Part shown: positions 12,472-24,903 of the stretch, piece after piece | Numbering within the stretch: position 1 is the stretch's first letter | Layout of the letters: each line of letters begins with the position of its first letter | Source: Thermodesulfobacteriota bacterium | Lineage (GTDB): Bacteria; Desulfobacterota_D; UBA1144; Nemesobacterales; UBA2774 | Direction: 5' to 3' | Length of the DNA: 64,000 nucleotides | Assembly (NCBI GenBank): GCA_040754335.1 | Contig: JBFMCV010000003.1 | Location: 173,356 to 237,355, forward strand | Made by a program: the position numbers and the translations under genes | Notes under the pieces: generated by a model | The model's input: only the letters and a program-made list of their open reading frames with translations | Databases searched by the model: none | Told to the model about the DNA's origin: nothing

Positions 12472-13803
12472 ATGAGCAGCGAAACATTTTTCACGCCGAG
12501 AGAGATAGTCTCGGAGCTAGACAGGTATATAATCGGCCAGAACAAGGCAAAACGCGCCGTTTCGATCGCGCTCCGCAACCGTTGGAGAAGGCAGCGCGTA
12601 TCGCCCGAGCTGAAGGACGAGATCGCGCCTAAGAACATACTCATGATAGGACCCACGGGCGTGGGAAAGACGGAGATTGCGAGGAGGCTCGCGAAGCTGG
12701 CCCAGGCTCCGTTCCTCAAGGTGGAGGCGTCAAAGTTCACGGAAGTCGGCTACGTCGGCAGGGACGTCGAGTCGATGATAAGGGACCTTACCGATATAGC
12801 CATAAAAATGATAACCGACGAAGAAAAACAGACCGTGAGAGCCAAGGCCGAAGACCTGGCGGAAGAGAGGATGCTCGATCTCCTTTTCCCCACAGGCGGG
12901 GGCGAGCAACCGCATACCGACACGGGGGGCGAAACCCGCGAGAAGCTGAGGAAGCTCTTAAGGGAAGGCAGGCTCAACGAGAGGTTCGTGGATATCGAGG
13001 TGACTTCAAAAAACTTTCCCATTCAGGTGTTCTCACCGCAGGGCCTGGAGGAGATGGACGTCAACATATCGGACATGCTGGGGAACCTCTTCCCCAAGAA
13101 AACAAAGAAGAGGAAGGTGAGAGTCCCCGACGCCATGGAAGTCCTCATACAGGAGGAAGCACAGAAGCTAATAGACATGGACAACGTCGTCAAGATGGCG
13201 ATAGAGAGGGTCGAGCAGTCGGGGATAATTTTCATCGACGAGATAGACAAGGTCGCCGGGCGCGAGAGCACCGCCGGGCCCGACGTATCGAGGGAAGGCG
13301 TACAGAGGGACCTGCTCCCGATAATAGAAGGGTGCACGGTGAATACGAAGCACGGGATGGTGAGGACTGACCACATTTTGTTCATCGGGGCGGGCGCATT
13401 CCACGTATCGAAGCCTTCGGACCTGATCCCCGAGCTCCAGGGCAGGTTCCCGATCAGGGTCGAGCTCGAGCCGCTTACGACGGAGGACTTCATCAACATC
13501 CTCACGCAGCCCAAGAATGCGCTCATCAAGCAGTACACGGAGCTGTTGAGCACGGAAAAAATAGACCTCGTCTTCAAGGACGACGCTATAAAGGAAATAG
13601 CGGAGACGGCCCAGGCGGTCAACGAATCGACGGAGAACATCGGCGCGAGGAGACTCCACACCATAATGGAGAGGATGCTCGACGAGATATCCTTCAACGC
13701 ACCCGACATGGCCGAGCAGAAGATTGTGATCGACGCGAAATACGTGAAGGACAAGATCGCCGATATAGTGAAGGACAGGGACCTGAGCAGATATATTCTA
13801 TAG
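12472..13803 (+). CDS. hslU: ATP-dependent protease ATPase subunit HslU
   Basis: 443 aa AAA+ unfoldase, the usual length. Walker A is [15 protein letters not shown], the pore loop is GYVGRDVES, Walker B is [13 protein letters not shown], and the C-terminal sensor-2 region [14 protein letters not shown] is followed by the conserved tail ending DRDLSRYIL, which docks into HslV. The I domain lies between the Walker motifs (about residues 110-230). It is the last gene of the xerC-hslV-hslU operon and has a 560 bp non-coding region behind it. Confidence 0.97.
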
Positions 13804-14366: not shown

Positions 14367-15089
14367 TTATGACTTGCTCTGCCAGAGCGCCTTTCCGATG
14401 AAAAAAGGCCCCAGGCTTTCGAGATACATCGACGTCTGCTTGGTCTTCCGCATCGACTGGATGAGTATGGATAGAGGATAGAGGTCCTTCCCGAGGACGC
14501 CTATCAGGAAGTCGTTGTCGTTCCTGTCGAGGCCGTGACAGGCAAGGCGTATGTCCTTGCCTAAGCCAGCGTCCCCGAACTTGAAGCCGAGCTTCCCGTG
14601 CTCTCCCAGGACAGAGCGCTGCTCTTCGGCCGAAAGGGTCTCGAAGAGCTTGTTCCTGCGGAGTGGATACCATATCACCCAGGGGAGCTCCGGGTCGAGA
14701 ACTCTCTCCCGCGGCCGGTCGATGAGCGTCCTCTCGAGATCGGGCTCGTATCCTAGCGAATAAGTCCTCCCGAGCATGGTGTATTCGGGCTTGGGCGTAA
14801 GCTCGGTGAAGGCCGAGCCGTTAAGGAACTCCCTAAGCCCGCCGACGAAGAAGTTCGGGTCCTCGTTAACGGACAGAAGGCCTATCCCGTAGGGGTCGTT
14901 TATGTCCGCATAAAGGGCGAAATCCATGCCGGATTTCTTTAATTCATTGATTAGTTTCGGCGTGTTATGACAGTTCCCGAAGGCGAGGAGCTGCATCAGC
15001 AGCCTCCGGTCGGAGGATAGGACGGTGCCGTCCTTCGCCCTCCCCTTCTCGCTTATATCGAGACCGGCGCGTTCAACATCGAGTGACAT
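14367..15089 (-). CDS. Chlorite dismutase/HemQ-family heme protein
   Basis: 240 aa. The C-terminal half carries the family's hallmarks: WVIWYPLRRNK, FETLSAEEQR, ACHGLDRNDNDFLIGVLG with the proximal heme ligand His185, and DLYPLSILIQSMRKT. Family members either decarboxylate coproheme (HemQ), detoxify chlorite, or are heme peroxidases; the YP-x-R/K motif fits a HemQ-like role better than true chlorite dismutase, but this is inference. I start at the ATG at 15089 because GGAGGT lies seven bases upstream; the frame continues to 15170 without support. No other heme genes are near, so it is probably monocistronic. Confidence 0.85.
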   Translation of the reverse strand: MSLDVERAGLDISEKGRAKDGTVLSSDRRLLMQLLAFGNCHNTPKLINELKKSGMDFALYADINDPYGIGLLSVNEDPNFFVGGLREFLNGSAFTELTPKPEYTMLGRTYSLGYEPDLERTLIDRPRERVLDPELPWVIWYPLRRNKLFETLSAEEQRSVLGEHGKLGFKFGDAGLGKDIRLACHGLDRNDNDFLIGVLGKDLYPLSILIQSMRKTKQTSMYLESLGPFFIGKALWQSKS

Positions 15090-15200
15090 TTTCAATACCT
15101 CCGCGGCTATTAAATATAACAGGGAAACCGCCCGCTGGCGATTGGGAAGAGGATTTCTCCATGCAAACACCGGTCACTACATCCGTTACTATCGGCCCTC

Positions 15201-18394: not shown

Positions 18395-18658
18395 TCAATA
18401 ATCCCCGTCTATGTTGATAGTCGGATCGTATTCTATATTGAACGCCCTTCTTATGGGGTCGACATTGAACACCCAGTAAGTGCCCTTGACGAATACGCTC
18501 GTCAGGGCGAGGGGCGGCCTTAACGCGAGACTCGTGAGCTTGAACGGGTGGAGTGCGTCGCCCGGATTGTATTTGTAATCCGTTATCTGCGGCGCCTGCG
18601 CCAGGGCGTTCGAAGCGATAAACAAGAGACCAAGAACCGATGCTGCGAAATATTTCAT
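18395..18658 (-). CDS. Small secreted protein of unknown function
   Basis: 87 aa with a clean signal peptide (MKYFAASVLGLLFIASNALA, cleaved before QAPQ). The mature part of about 67 aa has no recognised domain; it contains hydrophobic beta-type stretches (LALTSVFVKGTYWVF) and ends in acidic residues. GGGGAG lies six bases before the ATG at 18658, which decides this start over the ATG two codons upstream. A near-consensus promoter precedes it, suggesting strong expression. It faces argF tail to tail. Confidence 0.7.
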   Translation of the reverse strand: MKYFAASVLGLLFIASNALAQAPQITDYKYNPGDALHPFKLTSLALRPPLALTSVFVKGTYWVFNVDPIRRAFNIEYDPTINIDGDY

Positions 18659-18701
18659 GTCCATCTCCCCTTTAAAGTGAAGTGTTAACTTATACGGTCA
18701 A

Positions 18702-18857: not shown

Positions 18858-18923
18858 ATGGTGGATAACTTGAAAATGGATCGTAAAATTTATAGAATAG
18901 TAATTTCCGAGGCCGGATAACCG

Positions 18924-20042
18924 ATGAGAAGGGGAGAGAAGGTTTACTACGTCAAGGATTTCATACAGACCGTGCCTCTTCCCTCGCCCAAAAAGATATA
19001 CAGCGAGCTCGAAAAGCTCGGATACAGGGGACAGCCGCTCGCGAGGAAGGCCGTATCCCTCGCTTCTTACAGGCACGTCAAGAGGCTGAAGCTCCTCCAC
19101 AATAAGAACACCCCCAGGGCCAACCTGCCGCCGAGACCGAATTCCATTCTGATGGGCCCGACCGGGTGCGGGAAGACCTATCTCATAGAGCTCCTCTTCG
19201 GGGAGATATTCAAGCTCCCGTTCGTTATCATCGACATGACCAAATTCACGGAGTCGGGCTACGTAGGGGACGACGTCGTGAACATACTCGTCCAGCTCGT
19301 GTACGCCGCCAACGAAAGCATTGACATCGCGGAGTGCGGAGTGATCGTGCTCGACGAGTTCGACAAGATCGCAGGCGCATACAGCAGCGCCAGGTTCGCC
19401 GGGCAGGGCACGACGAAAGACGTCTCGGGATACGGAGTCCAGAGGGAGCTCCTCAAGATACTCGAAGGCACGGACGTTCAGATTCCGCTCGACTTCGGGT
19501 TCTCGAGCAGGGGGCCGAGGGCCCTCATCTCCACGCGGGATATAACGTTCTTCGCCGTTGGGGCTTTCTCCGGCATAAGGAACCTGTTCGAGAGGAAGGG
19601 AGTGGGGTTCATGCAGGCGCTCGAGGAAGGGAGAGGAGACGAGGAATCGATAGCCTATAACCTCACCGAAGAGGAAGCCGACGATATAACGAAATTCCAT
19701 ATGTTCGGGTTCCTCCCCGAGCTCATATCGAGGTTCAACAGGATAGTCCCCTTCGCCCCCCTACACAGGAGCACGCTCAAGGAGATCATCCAGATCAAGG
19801 TGCAGAACTATCAGAGGGAATTCGAGGAAGAGGGGTTCAAGCTGCACATAGAGCCCAATGTCGTGGATTTCATCATCGAGGAAGCCCTCAAGAGGCAGAC
19901 TGGCGCGAGGGGTCTCGACGTGATCATATCGAAATACCTGGAAGAGGTCGCCTTCGAGACTTTCGGCAAGGGCGACGAAGGGGAAGTCGTGCTTACACTC
20001 GATTCGGGCGGGGTTTCTCACATAGTCAAGAGACGCGCATGA
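18924..20042 (+). CDS. ClpX-like AAA+ unfoldase lacking the zinc domain
   Basis: 372 aa. The AAA+ core follows ClpX closely: SILMGPTGCGKTYL (Walker A), GYVGDDVVN (pore loop 1), VIVLDEFDKIAG (Walker B), TKDVSGYGVQRELLKILEGT, the arginine-finger region LPELISRFNRIVPF and the sensor-2 KRQTGARGLDVII. Differences from true ClpX: there is no N-terminal C4 zinc-binding domain, and the RKH loop that reads ssrA tags is replaced by a segment lacking RKH (after TDVQIPLDFGF). A VGF tripeptide (ERKGVGFMQ) stands where ClpX has its ClpP-docking IGF loop. It probably unfolds a different set of substrates. Its stop overlaps the rimO start (ATGA), so the two are translationally coupled. No clpP is in the window. 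Confidence 0.85.
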   Translation: MRRGEKVYYVKDFIQTVPLPSPKKIYSELEKLGYRGQPLARKAVSLASYRHVKRLKLLHNKNTPRANLPPRPNSILMGPTGCGKTYLIELLFGEIFKLPFVIIDMTKFTESGYVGDDVVNILVQLVYAANESIDIAECGVIVLDEFDKIAGAYSSARFAGQGTTKDVSGYGVQRELLKILEGTDVQIPLDFGFSSRGPRALISTRDITFFAVGAFSGIRNLFERKGVGFMQALEEGRGDEESIAYNLTEEEADDITKFHMFGFLPELISRFNRIVPFAPLHRSTLKEIIQIKVQNYQREFEEEGFKLHIEPNVVDFIIEEALKRQTGARGLDVIISKYLEEVAFETFGKGDEGEVVLTLDSGGVSHIVKRRA

Positions 20043-21346
20043 AGATATCGATCGTAAGCCTCGGCTGCTCGAAAAACCTTGTAGACAGCGAGATAATGAC
20101 TGGTGCGCTCAAAAGCGCGGGACACGAGCTCTCTACCGAAGAGAACGCCGAAGTGATAATCGTAAACACGTGCGGGTTCATAGGCGACGCGAAGAGGGAA
20201 TCAGTCGAGACGATACTCGAGTTATCGAAGAGGAAGGAAGAGGGGAGCTGCCGCAAGTTAATAGTAACCGGATGCCTCGTGGAGAGGTATTCAAAAGAGC
20301 TCAGCCGCGAGCTGCCTGAAGTGGACGCGTTCTGGGGAACGGGGAACCTGCTCAGGATCAACGAGGCACTAAACGAAATCCAGCCTGAAAAGATACACAG
20401 GAACCCTCCCGGGACTCTCTACGACCCCGACACTCCGAGGGTGCTCCTCACGCCGGCCCACTATGCGTACGTCAAAGTGTCCGAAGGCTGCTCTAGGACG
20501 TGCTCCTTCTGCATTATCCCCAAAATGAGGGGCACGATGAAAAGCAGACAGGTCGAATCTATTGCCGGAGAAGTCAGTCGGTTGGCCGGTCAAGGGGTCA
20601 GGGAGATAAACCTCATAGCGCAGGACATGACGAGCTATGGCAGAGACATAGGTACCAATCTCGAGGAGATGCTGATGGCGCTCGCGGGAATCGAAGGCGT
20701 GAAATGGATCAGGATCCATTACTGCTACCCGTGGGGGCTCACGGACTCCCTCATAGGCCTCATCGCGGACGAGGAAAAAATACTACCTTACATAGACATG
20801 CCGCTCCAGCACATAAGCGACCGTATACTGGGCCTCATGGACAGGAAGACCCCCGCCAAAAGGATAAGGGACATCATTCACAGGCTGAAGAGCCGCGTCG
20901 GCAATCTGACGCTCCGCACGACGTTCATAGTAGGGTTCCCCGGGGAAACGGAAGAAGAGTTCGAAGAGCTCCTTGAATTCGTCGCGGAGACGGGCTTCGA
21001 CAGGGCGGGCGCGTTCAAATACTCGCGGGAGGAAGGAACACCGGCGGGCGCAATGACAGGTCAGATACCGGAGGATGTAAAAGAAGAAAGGTACGAGAGA
21101 CTGATGCAGGTCCAGTCGGAAGTGTCGCTCAGAAGGAACGAATCGCACATCGGCACGATTCACGAGGGTTTTATCGAAGGGAGAGAGAACGGGAATTACA
21201 TTGCCAGGATCGCCTCGCAGGCCCCCGAGGTGGACGGATTGACCTACGTTAAACGAACCAAGCCGCTCGATACGGGCGACCTCGTCAGGATAAAAATCAC
21301 CGGCGCGGATATTTACGACCTTCACGGGGAAGTCGTTCCCGAATAA
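20039..21346 (+). CDS. rimO: Ribosomal protein S12 methylthiotransferase RimO
   Basis: 435 aa radical-SAM enzyme that methylthiolates an aspartate of ribosomal protein S12. The N-terminal MTTase domain (VSLGCSKNLVDSE, NTCGFIGDAKRES) binds one iron-sulfur cluster; the radical-SAM motif is CSRTCSFC; the signature YCYPWGLTDSLI separates RimO from MiaB; and a TRAM domain closes the protein. The start codon overlaps the stop of the ClpX-like gene by 4 bp. The downstream neighbour is convergent. Confidence 0.95.
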   Translation: MKISIVSLGCSKNLVDSEIMTGALKSAGHELSTEENAEVIIVNTCGFIGDAKRESVETILELSKRKEEGSCRKLIVTGCLVERYSKELSRELPEVDAFWGTGNLLRINEALNEIQPEKIHRNPPGTLYDPDTPRVLLTPAHYAYVKVSEGCSRTCSFCIIPKMRGTMKSRQVESIAGEVSRLAGQGVREINLIAQDMTSYGRDIGTNLEEMLMALAGIEGVKWIRIHYCYPWGLTDSLIGLIADEEKILPYIDMPLQHISDRILGLMDRKTPAKRIRDIIHRLKSRVGNLTLRTTFIVGFPGETEEEFEELLEFVAETGFDRAGAFKYSREEGTPAGAMTGQIPEDVKEERYERLMQVQSEVSLRRNESHIGTIHEGFIEGRENGNYIARIASQAPEVDGLTYVKRTKPLDTGDLVRIKITGADIYDLHGEVVPE

Positions 21347-21358
21347 AAACCCGTACAA

Positions 21359-22564
21359 TCACTGCCCGGATTCACTGCGGGAAAACATCTGCCTTATTCC
21401 ATAGGTAGTCGTCCTCTCGGCGGGAATCCTGCCTATCTCCCACGTGAGGCGCCTGAACTCCTCGGGCGGGAAGTACTGCCCATAGCTCGCGCCCGCCGAG
21501 CGGGAAATCTGCTCCTCCATGAGTGTGCCTCCGAAGTCGTTCGCCCCCGCCGTGAGCGAAAACTGCGCGAACTCGGGGCCCTGCTTAACCCAGGAGACCT
21601 GTATGTTGTTTATCCATCCCCTGAGCATGAGCCTCGAGACGCCGTACATCTTGAGCTGGTTGAGGTCTCCGGGGCCCTCCTGCACCTTGCCCTTGGAGTG
21701 CCTGTAGAGACGCGTGTTCCAGGGTATGAACCTGAGCGGCACGAACTCCGTAAACCCGCCCGTCTCTTTCTGTATGTCCCGCAGTATGCCTATGTGCTCG
21801 GCCCAGTGGTGGGGCTTGTCCACATGGCCGTACATTATGGTCGAGGTCGTCCTCATGCCGGCCCTGTGCGCCTTCTTCACTATCCTTATCCAGGCTTCTG
21901 TGGGCATCTTCCTCGGCGCGATTATCTTCCTCACCTCTTCGACGAGTATCTCGGCCGCTGTGCCGGGGAAAGTGTTGTGTCCGGCGTCTTTTAATTTGTC
22001 TATGAAATCCTCTTCGCTTATGCCGAGAGTCTCGGCGCCGTAATAGATCTCGAACGGGGAGAAGGCGTGCGTGTGCATCTCGGGCACGGCCCTCTTAACG
22101 GCCTTTATAAGCTCTATATAGAAATTCCCGTCGATGTCGGGATGCATGCCGCCCTGCATGCATACCTCAGTGGCCCCTATCTCCCACGCCTCCCTGACCT
22201 TGTCCGCGATCTCGTCCATGGACAGGAAGTAAGCCCTCTCGTCGCCCTCGGGCGCCATAAAATTGCAGAAGCCGCAGTACGTGTTGCAGATGTTCGTGAA
22301 GTTGATGTTCCTGTTGACGACGTAAGTCACGACGTCTCCGACGTCCTTTTTCCTTATCTCGTCCGCGGTTATAGCCAGGGCCGACAGCTCGTCAGGGTCG
22401 GTTATATTGAAGAGCTCTTCGGCTTCTCCGACGGAAATCTCGCCGCCCGAGAGAGATTTATTGAGTATCCTGCCGGTCGTGCCATTAACCTTGCGCAAAA
22501 TGCCGTCGAGCCCGAGGCTCCTGTTCTCTTCTATGCGTTTGACTGCGTCTTTAATATGCTCCAT
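21359..22564 (-). CDS. cofH: FO synthase subunit 2
   Basis: 401 aa radical-SAM enzyme. With CofG it builds FO (7,8-didemethyl-8-hydroxy-5-deazariboflavin), the chromophore of coenzyme F420. The cluster motif is CNTYCGFCNF; other CofH markers are VCMQGGMHPDIDG, THAFSPFEIYYGA, TTSTIMYGHVD and GANDFGGTLMEE. I start at the ATG at 22564, which has GGAGG six bases upstream; upstream codons lie inside cofG. It overlaps the cofG end by 14 bp. MqnC and MqnE are related enzymes, but the tandem with cofG and cofD favours CofH. Confidence 0.92.
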   Translation of the reverse strand: MEHIKDAVKRIEENRSLGLDGILRKVNGTTGRILNKSLSGGEISVGEAEELFNITDPDELSALAITADEIRKKDVGDVVTYVVNRNINFTNICNTYCGFCNFMAPEGDERAYFLSMDEIADKVREAWEIGATEVCMQGGMHPDIDGNFYIELIKAVKRAVPEMHTHAFSPFEIYYGAETLGISEEDFIDKLKDAGHNTFPGTAAEILVEEVRKIIAPRKMPTEAWIRIVKKAHRAGMRTTSTIMYGHVDKPHHWAEHIGILRDIQKETGGFTEFVPLRFIPWNTRLYRHSKGKVQEGPGDLNQLKMYGVSRLMLRGWINNIQVSWVKQGPEFAQFSLTAGANDFGGTLMEEQISRSAGASYGQYFPPEEFRRLTWEIGRIPAERTTTYGIRQMFSRSESGQ

Positions 22565-23831
22565 CGGATGCCTCCTCGGAAGGGACGTATCCCTGCTCGT
22601 CCACGGCACCCCTTACCAGCTTGAGCAGATCGTCGTCGATGTACTTATCGTCTATGAATTCAGGGTAAACAGGGAGTCTCTCCCTGAGAGTAAAGCCCAT
22701 TTCCTCTACGACGTTTTTCATCATGTCGAGCTTGGGCCAGGGGGCCTCCGGATTGACATAGTCTATCGTGATAGGGGACACGCCCCCGAGGTCGTTCACG
22801 CCGGCGTCGACGAAGAGAGGATAGGTGTCGGGATTGAGGTTGGGCGGTATCTGTATGTTCATTACCTCCCCGAATACGAGCCTCGCGATCGCCACTATCT
22901 TGAGCATGTCTATAAAATCGGGCGGCGGGTACTTCTCCATGATTATCCCCTGCTTGGGGCTGAAATTCTGGATTATCAATTCCTGGATATGTCCGAAGGC
23001 GTCGCTCAGCTCCTTTAATACGTAGAGGGAGTCAATCCTCTCCTCCCAGGTCTCTCCTATGCCGACGAGTATCCCCGAAGTCCAGGGTATGCCGAGCTCG
23101 CCTGCCAACTCCATCGTCTTCATCCTGTGCCTGGGCACTTTATCGGGGCACCCGTGATGCGCCTGGCCCTTCTTAAGGAGCCTCGGGCTGATGTTCTCGA
23201 GCATGAGGCCCATGCTGGGGTTAGATTCCCTGAATGCCAGGAGCTCGTCCCTAGTAGCCAGGCCCAGGTTCGTATGAGGGAATATGCGCTCCCTCAAACC
23301 CGCCTCGCCCATGGCGATAAGGTATTCGGCCGTGCTCTTATATCCGAGCCTGCCGAGCGCCTCCCGGTACACAGGGTACATGAGCTCGGGCTTGTCTCCC
23401 GTAACGAAGAGGAGCTCTGTGCAGCCGAGCTCCGCCCCTTTTCTAGCCATGTCTATGACCTCTTCAGGCGTGAGGAAAAGAGGGCCCTCGCCGGGCTCGT
23501 ATTTGAACGTGCAGTATCCGCAGCGGTTACGGCAGAGCTGAGTGAGTGGGACGAACACGTTTCTCGAAAACGTGAGCGTCTTACCTTTGCCCCTGTCTCT
23601 CAGTTTCGACGCGGTCGTGAGGAGGAAGGGTATTTCTTCCCTTCCCAGTTTAGAAAGCGAAACCGCGTCATCCCGGCTAAGGGACTCGCCGCCCTCGGCC
23701 CTGGCGAGTATTTCCCCGAGCTCGCCTGGAGCCGTTCCGGCCGCAATCGATAGGTTGCCCGTCATGCCCCGGGCATATTCCGCAGGGGCGGGCCCGGAAC
23801 AGCATATCGATTTGATATCAAGAGCAGTCAT
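22551..23831 (-). CDS. cofG: FO synthase subunit 1
   Basis: 426 aa radical-SAM protein, the partner of CofH in FO synthesis. The motif CRNRCGYCTFKYEPGEG is diagnostic for CofG, followed by ELLFVTGDKPE, PHTNLGLATRDELL, SMGLMLENISPRLL and GGVSPITIDYVNPEAPWP. An N-terminal stretch of about 60 residues before the radical-SAM barrel is longer than in many CofG proteins and similar to those with an added N-terminal helix bundle. cofH follows with a 14 bp overlap; cofD lies about 145 bp upstream on the same strand. Confidence 0.93.
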   Translation of the reverse strand: MTALDIKSICCSGPAPAEYARGMTGNLSIAAGTAPGELGEILARAEGGESLSRDDAVSLSKLGREEIPFLLTTASKLRDRGKGKTLTFSRNVFVPLTQLCRNRCGYCTFKYEPGEGPLFLTPEEVIDMARKGAELGCTELLFVTGDKPELMYPVYREALGRLGYKSTAEYLIAMGEAGLRERIFPHTNLGLATRDELLAFRESNPSMGLMLENISPRLLKKGQAHHGCPDKVPRHRMKTMELAGELGIPWTSGILVGIGETWEERIDSLYVLKELSDAFGHIQELIIQNFSPKQGIIMEKYPPPDFIDMLKIVAIARLVFGEVMNIQIPPNLNPDTYPLFVDAGVNDLGGVSPITIDYVNPEAPWPKLDMMKNVVEEMGFTLRERLPVYPEFIDDKYIDDDLLKLVRGAVDEQGYVPSEEASDGAY

Positions 23832-23976
23832 AATTCTCCCAGATATATAATTAAACCAGATATTTATTCAGATAAAAGTCCGATTACGACGATGTATGCT
23901 GCGGTTATCACCCCGGATTAACCTATTAATCATTAGCACAAACGGGCAAAACTTGTCAAGGAGGTCCGGGAGCCGG

Positions 23977-24903
23977 CTAAATCTCGGAGAGGACGGCCGA
24001 GGCGAGGAGGGCCGCCTTGTCAGGGTCGGACATCACCGTGTCGAGCACGACGGGCTTGATCCCCATCCCGCTTATCCGCTCGGCCTCCCGGGCGTCCTCC
24101 CTGTCGATAACCATGATGTCGAGAAAGTCCCGGTAGAGTCTAGCCACGCCGGCCGACGACACCTCGAGCCCTAGCCCCCTCATAAGCTTGTCCGCAGGCC
24201 CTTTGAGCGGCACCCCCCCTATAAGCGGGCTTATGGCGATAATCCTCGCGCCTGAGGCCCTGAGCGCTTCACCGATGCCCTTTACGTTTAGTATAGGGCC
24301 TATGCTTATGATGGGGTTGCTGGGGCAAAGAATAACGACCCTGGCGTCCCTTATCGACTCCTCAACGCCCGGGGCGGGCGCTGCTCTTTCGATATTTTTG
24401 AAAACCACCTCTATCACATCGGGCCTCATCTTCCGCTTCACGAAATATTCCTGAAAGTGCATCTCCCCGTCGTCGGTCACTATCCATGTCTCGACGTCCT
24501 CATCCGTCATCGGGAGGACTCGTATGCCTTCAGTTATGCCGAAAGCTTTTGCCAGCTCCGCCGTGACTTGCGAAGGCGTGAAACCCTTCTGCCTCAGCTG
24601 CGTCCTGTAAATGTGCGTGGCGAAGTCGACGTCCCCTATATTGAACCAGGTCTCGGATCCGAATCTCGAAAGCGCGGCCAGGCATTCGAACGTATCGCCC
24701 CTCACCCCCCACCCCTTCCCGGCATCTATCAGGCCGGAGAGCCTGTATATTATAGTATCGACGTCCGGAGAGACCCTGAGACCATGCAAAACTATGTCGT
24801 CGCCGGTATTTACGATCACAGACAGCGGTTCGCCGTTTATAACGCGGGCGAGACCCTCAAGGAATTTAGCGGCTCCGACACCTCCGCCAAGTGCTGTTAT
24901 CAT
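23977..24903 (-). CDS. cofD: 2-phospho-L-lactate transferase (or PEP-dependent FO transferase)
   Basis: 308 aa. CofD joins the lactyl- or enolpyruvyl-phosphate moiety to FO to give F420-0 or its dehydro form. The start MITALGGGVGAAKFLEGL, NTGDDIVLHGLRVSPDVDT, WFNIGDVDFATHIYRT and LCPSNPIISIGPIL are the conserved family blocks. With cofG and cofH downstream on the same strand, this forms an F420 cluster; cofC and cofE are not seen here. The minus-strand start faces the divergent PpiD-like gene across 275 bp. Confidence 0.95.
   Translation of the reverse strand: MITALGGGVGAAKFLEGLARVINGEPLSVIVNTGDDIVLHGLRVSPDVDTIIYRLSGLIDAGKGWGVRGDTFECLAALSRFGSETWFNIGDVDFATHIYRTQLRQKGFTPSQVTAELAKAFGITEGIRVLPMTDEDVETWIVTDDGEMHFQEYFVKRKMRPDVIEVVFKNIERAAPAPGVEESIRDARVVILCPSNPIISIGPILNVKGIGEALRASGARIIAISPLIGGVPLKGPADKLMRGLGLEVSSAGVARLYRDFLDIMVIDREDAREAERISGMGIKPVVLDTVMSDPDKAALLASAVLSEI

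Follow-up and report, generated by a model that had tools for sequence, protein, structure and literature searches.

An uncharacterised ClpX-like family without zinc domain or RKH loop, spread over five bacterial phyla and branching outside standard ClpX

The clpX-like gene and its motor motifs

The window, i.e., the whole stretch of DNA analysed (64,000 nucleotides), comes from a Candidatus Dadabacteria MAG. It carries a clpX-like gene that overlaps rimO, with a promoter-like site upstream of the pair. The features of the locus are:

18870-18898 (+): probable promoter of the clpX-like/rimO pair, TTGAAA - 17 nt - TAGAAT (consensus match only)
18924-20042 (+): clpX-like gene, 372 aa, AAA+ (HCLR-type) unfoldase family without zinc domain
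19155-19178 (+): Walker A, GPTGCGKT, residues 78-85 (alignment to E. coli ClpX)
19251-19274 (+): pore-1 loop, ESGYVGDD, residues 110-117 (alignment to E. coli ClpX)
19341-19364 (+): Walker B, VIVLDEFD, residues 140-147 (alignment to E. coli ClpX)
19491-19520 (+): DFGFSSRGPR, residues 190-199, at the position of the RKH loop, forming the tip of a beta hairpin in the structure model
19602-19610 (+): VGF, residues 227-229, aligned with the ClpP-docking IGF of ClpX
19731-19733 (+): arginine finger R270, within PELISR (alignment to E. coli ClpX)
19902-19910 (+): sensor-2 GAR, residues 327-329, within GARG (alignment to E. coli ClpX)
20039-20042 (+): ATGA overlap of 4 bases, clpX-like TGA stop and rimO ATG start
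20039-21346 (+): rimO, ribosomal protein S12 methylthiotransferase (TIGR01125, 502 bits vs cut-off 357)

The ORF at 18924-20042 begins with ATG and encodes a ClpX-type AAA+ ATPase. The sequence-only reading described its ATPase motifs and pore loop as intact, and in the alignment to E. coli ClpX the Walker A, Walker B, pore-1, arginine finger and sensor-2 motifs are all present. They are also intact in the Dadabacteria, Myxococcota and WOR-3 rows, and in nearly all other rows of the family. Only AAA_2, AAA and ClpB_D2-small matched the protein above the Pfam cut-off. The zf-C4_ClpX zinc domain was not found in it by Pfam, and the sole match to that domain in the assembly lies in a standard clpX gene, as expected from the earlier claim that the N-terminal zinc domain is absent. 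The NCBIfam ClpX models were the best matches to the protein, yet the scores fell far under the curated equivalog cut-offs (TIGR00382 and NF003745; 202.5 vs 370.75 and 233.5 vs 359 bits). An AlphaFold2 model, built from a 15-sequence alignment, had a pLDDT of 77.6 and a pTM of 0.76, and its top structural matches were ClpX chains, largely from structures of ClpXP complexes (E 2e-23, probability 1.0).

Orthologues of the protein share 76-95% amino acid identity across Dadabacteria. Across five Dadabacteria genomes, identity was 76-84% for the ClpX-like protein (relative to P0001, the protein encoded in the window), 62-74% for RimO, 77-92% for standard ClpX and 79-88% for ClpP, i.e., the ClpX-like protein is better conserved than its neighbour RimO. 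In Dadabacteria comparisons the gene had a dN of 0.03-0.09 and a dS from 0.6 to saturation. These identities, the low dN relative to dS and the conservation above RimO show that the clpX-like gene is under strong purifying selection and that its features are not due to chance or drift.

A sequence similar to the promoter-like site is found in loci of Dadabacteria families f1-f3. An 89-aa ORF at 18395-18664 (-), between argF and the clpX-like gene, has no Pfam match; it is 64-88% conserved in several f1 Dadabacteria, and its N-terminus resembles a signal peptide. In f1 genomes rimO is directly followed by the F420 genes cofH and cofD (family models; 21359-24903, -), and the radical-SAM gene between them looks like cofG. 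A chlorite-dismutase family protein (PF06778) is encoded at 14367-15170 (-).

Standard ClpX in the same genome and placement of the family

The sequence-only reading took the gene for a ClpX paralogue. The host genome does encode a standard ClpX (425 aa), whose gene belongs to a tig-clpP-clpX operon on a different contig. The genome has one true ClpP; a dedicated second ClpP was considered as a partner and rejected, because the only further PF00574 hit is weak and fragmentary. Among 58 genomes of the Dadabacteria phylum, every one of the 24 from families f1-f3 carried the clpX-like gene (fragmentary in one), and the 34 from families f4-f8 all lacked it. Standard ClpX was also detected, at the threshold used, in 21 of those 24 genomes, the exceptions being G006, G037 and G040. 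Since G006 and G040 are additionally without a clear ClpP, assembly gaps are suggested as the cause in these two.

In a maximum-likelihood tree of 68 proteins with 200 bootstrap trees, the ClpX-like family formed a group of 28 rows with a support of 100/100 and a stem of 1.78 changes per site. It fell outside standard ClpX (100/98), the Myxococcus xanthus ClpX3 group and HslU (100/100), and the family and standard ClpX each stayed a single group in 200 of 200 bootstrap trees. The family is separate from standard ClpX, but long branches leave its exact position among other divergent ClpX-like proteins uncertain. The paralogue claim is thus borne out, the gene neither grouping inside normal ClpX nor being the only clpX of its genome.

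Family profile searches revealed members in 64 of the 195 Myxococcota sampled, 5 of 147 genomes of the WOR-3 phylum, 4 of 294 Planctomycetota genomes, and three genomes of the Verrucomicrobiota phylum with scores well above the standard-ClpX range. We conclude that the protein belongs to an uncharacterised ClpX-like family that is spread over five bacterial phyla and branches outside standard ClpX. It carries the family signature of an LDEFDK Walker B, KDVSGxGVQ, PELI.RF, a hydrophobic-GF tripeptide and no zinc domain. With ClpX (TIGR00382/NF003745) it shares the AAA+ large and small domains, Walker A and B, the pore-1 GYVG, the arginine finger, the sensor-2 GAR, the hydrophobic-GF docking tripeptide and the overall fold, but at an identity of only ∼33-36%. 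The protein is real and conserved, has the ATPase and pore motifs and the IGF-type docking tripeptide of ClpX, and yet departs from ClpX on four defining points: the zinc domain, the RKH loop, the NCBIfam cut-offs and placement in the ClpX clade.

HslU (ClpY), which the host genome encodes at about position 12493 of the window, is likewise a zinc-less HCLR-type unfoldase. The ClpX-like protein, however, has no I-domain insertion and scores 88.6 bits against the HslU model (cut-off 362), and HslU forms its own clade in the tree. A ClpX-like AAA+ core is also found in Bacillus phage G gp258, in a protein of Agrobacterium phage Atu_ph07 and in Photobacterium damselae plasmid proteins, but these keep the zinc-domain cysteine pattern, the phage ones keep RK(H/N), and all lie outside the family. 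A phage origin was rejected, since the annotated phage and plasmid matches included in the tree were ordinary or jumbo-phage ClpX types and fell outside the family. No relative of the ClpX-like protein was confirmed among the viral contigs searched, and its match to PHROG 4339 (186 bits) was no better than those to the ClpX models.

M. xanthus DK1622 is reported to have three ClpX proteins, one of which, ClpX3 (MXAN_2743), is without N-domain and RKH loop and helps the cells to grow at 36 C (PMC11423568). Given this likeness in gross anatomy, the ClpX-like protein could be the equivalent of ClpX3, i.e., a zinc-less, RKH-less ClpX needed at raised temperature. The genome G201, which matches M. 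xanthus, makes this very unlikely. Three of its proteins match E. coli ClpX at 67.24, 64.82 and 43.54% identity, precisely the figures published for ClpX1, ClpX2 and ClpX3 (PMC11423568), and the product of a fourth gene, at C1:634225-635304, shares 33.7% identity with E. coli ClpX and 45.6% with P0001. This fourth gene is an orthologue of the Dadabacteria ClpX-like protein and is not among the three described. ClpX3 and a family member therefore coexist in G201, and identity of the family with ClpX3 was rejected. ClpX3 is also closer to standard ClpX, which its group joins in the tree with moderate support (91/73), and it has GYYG in pore-1 and QAW in place of RKH. In the M. xanthus ClpX2 lineage (L161, L199, L201) the zinc-domain cysteine pattern is kept, and KKY stands in place of RKH.

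The rimO overlap and gene neighbourhoods

The stop of the clpX-like gene overlaps the start of rimO (ATGA or GTGA) in all 16 Dadabacteria loci in which rimO comes next. The sequence-only reading saw in this overlap a hint of a link to ribosome modification or quality control. The gene could, on this account, be a dedicated partner of RimO or S12 that unfolds, activates or turns over RimO or parts of the ribosome, and the persistence of the 4-base overlap despite differing upstream genes speaks for it: these are arg genes in f1, and glutamate-synthase-like or tyrS-like genes (named by eye) elsewhere. The wider order in f2 and f3 is clpX-like - rimO - fmt.

Loss of either gene argues the other way. 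In G003 and G007 rimO is gone and fmt follows the clpX-like gene directly (loci L213 and L019, respectively); the best RimO matches left in these genomes are ∼31% identical, which is the MiaB/MtaB level. The clpX-like gene is nevertheless constrained there, L019 and L213 encoding proteins of 90.8% identity with a dN of 0.05 and a saturated dS. Conversely, rimO-fmt occurs in G009, G010, G013 and G014 although these genomes lack the clpX-like gene, and the neighbourhoods examined from Myxococcota, WOR-3, Verrucomicrobiota and Planctomycetota showed no rimO beside the family gene. The dedicated-partner account is largely refuted by these cases, and we regard it as highly improbable. Since either gene is retained in genomes that lack its partner, the most plausible reading of the overlap is an inherited operon order, limited to Dadabacteria. 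Thus, of the earlier claim, the overlap is real and conserved within Dadabacteria, whereas the link to ribosome modification is unsupported; with rimO lost and a constrained clpX-like gene kept in two genomes, and the reverse in four, a dedicated RimO or ribosome role for the protein is unlikely. A literature search found no paper pairing Dadabacteria with ClpX, and none titled on RimO or ClpX among those mentioning both.

An operon partner common across phyla was rejected, since the neighbours differ: an alpha-amylase-family protein in several Myxococcota genomes, a peroxiredoxin and a DUF2130 protein in two genomes of the WOR-3 phylum, and an alpha/beta hydrolase or a resolvase in Verrucomicrobiota. 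Membership in a defence system was rejected as well, PADLOC giving weak generic AAA matches only. In phyla other than Dadabacteria, mobile or defence-rich DNA may carry the family. An Anaeromyxobacter MAG (L027:460-6029) has two members in tandem, with a CARF/RtcR-type sigma-54 regulator a few kb away; in the WOR-3 locus L025 the ORFs upstream of the member resemble, by eye, an AbiEi/AbiEii pair; and in L149 the resolvase adjoins the family member.

Docking loop, entrance loop and proposed function

The VGF noted at the ClpP-docking position does align with the IGF of ClpX, the hydrophobic-GF tip being kept. E. coli ClpX inserts the side chains of I268, F270 and V274 into clefts of ClpP, and its binding to ClpP suffers from I268L, F270L, V274A and changes in loop length (PMC7112951). 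Residues 219-247 of the ClpX-like protein are predicted to be disordered (pLDDT below 50 in the AlphaFold2 model), and in the family rows of alignment A1 G228 and F229 are the only invariant residues of this segment. Beyond A1 the GF is close to invariant, with GY in two Planctomycetota members. The first residue of the tripeptide in Dadabacteria is V, L or M, and A in three loci (L017, L020 and L021); at the place of E. coli V274 Dadabacteria have L, I or V (L233 in the ClpX-like protein). The stretch from GAF to the tripeptide has 11 residues, against 15 in the standard ClpX of the host. Because the GF is invariant in an otherwise variable loop, these features favour docking on ClpP without proving it, and the varying first residue (V/L/M/A) and the shortened stretch before GF count against it.

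These same deviations would fit a chaperone that works independently of ClpP and remodels particular complexes by partial unfolding or disassembly, the GF loop being a leftover. There is a precedent in mitochondrial ClpX, which activates ALAS through partial unfolding (PMC7077987), and none of the neighbourhoods read showed a recognisable clpP next to the gene. The drift of the IGF region, with A at the first position in those three loci and a shortened N-flank, is however hard to set above the retention of GF in every A1 family row and nearly everywhere else, since docking on ClpP is the known reason for such conservation. We therefore consider the ClpP-independent chaperone unlikely, though still worth weighing.

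At the columns of RKH the ClpX-like protein has FSS in the alignment, and the RKH motif is absent. The sequence-only reading had the RKH loop replaced, and the replacement proves to be a conserved one: the stretch DFGFSSRGPR is nearly identical in all Dadabacteria rows, and most Myxococcota rows have DFGFTSR at the same position, so that DFGF[ST]SR is common to Dadabacteria and most Myxococcota. The RKH loop, which is described as unique to ClpX-family enzymes, consists in E. coli ClpX of a beta ribbon and a short helix and touches the substrate at the channel entrance; mutation of RKH inhibits degradation of ssrA-tagged substrates (PMC7112951). The AlphaFold2 model has a beta hairpin at the replaced loop (strands 184-188 and 199-203), which resembles that loop (PMC7112951). 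Since DFGF[ST]SR is kept in two phyla, the sequences point to a loop that was replaced and then conserved as a new recognition surface, rather than to decay. The DFGF motif is not common to the WOR-3, Verrucomicrobiota and Planctomycetota members in the alignment, and its absence from the WOR-3 and Verrucomicrobiota members counts against the function proposed below.

The specificity of ClpXP is mostly set by the zinc domain, through adaptors, and by the RKH loop, through ssrA. On the sequence features above, we propose that the ClpX-like protein probably works without adaptors, unfolding proteins and passing them to ClpP, and that its substrates probably differ from those of standard ClpXP. 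Its motifs and fold suggest that it would form a hexameric, ATP-driven unfoldase; the [V/L/M/I]GF loop, judging from the tripeptide, would dock it on the single ClpP of the cell, into which it would then thread proteins. A different substrate set would be expected from the replaced loop, because the adaptor-binding zinc domain and the loop that reads ssrA tags are both absent. Substrates might then be chosen by the DFGF[ST]SR hairpin at the entrance, together with the short N-terminal segment.

More tentatively, and with somewhat more doubt than confidence, the family may represent a second ClpP-partnered recognition pathway in at least five phyla, in which the DFGF[ST]SR loop of Dadabacteria and Myxococcota would read a different degron and the M. 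xanthus member would be an uncatalogued fourth ClpX. A long-lived family that is without zinc domain and RKH but has the motor and the docking tip is a natural experiment in re-aiming a ClpP unfoldase. M. xanthus gains a fourth ClpX-like protein beside the three described, and the question is testable there. The members of the Verrucomicrobiota phylum (L148, L149, L150 and L026) carry an N-terminal extension of ∼200-300 aa with no Pfam match.
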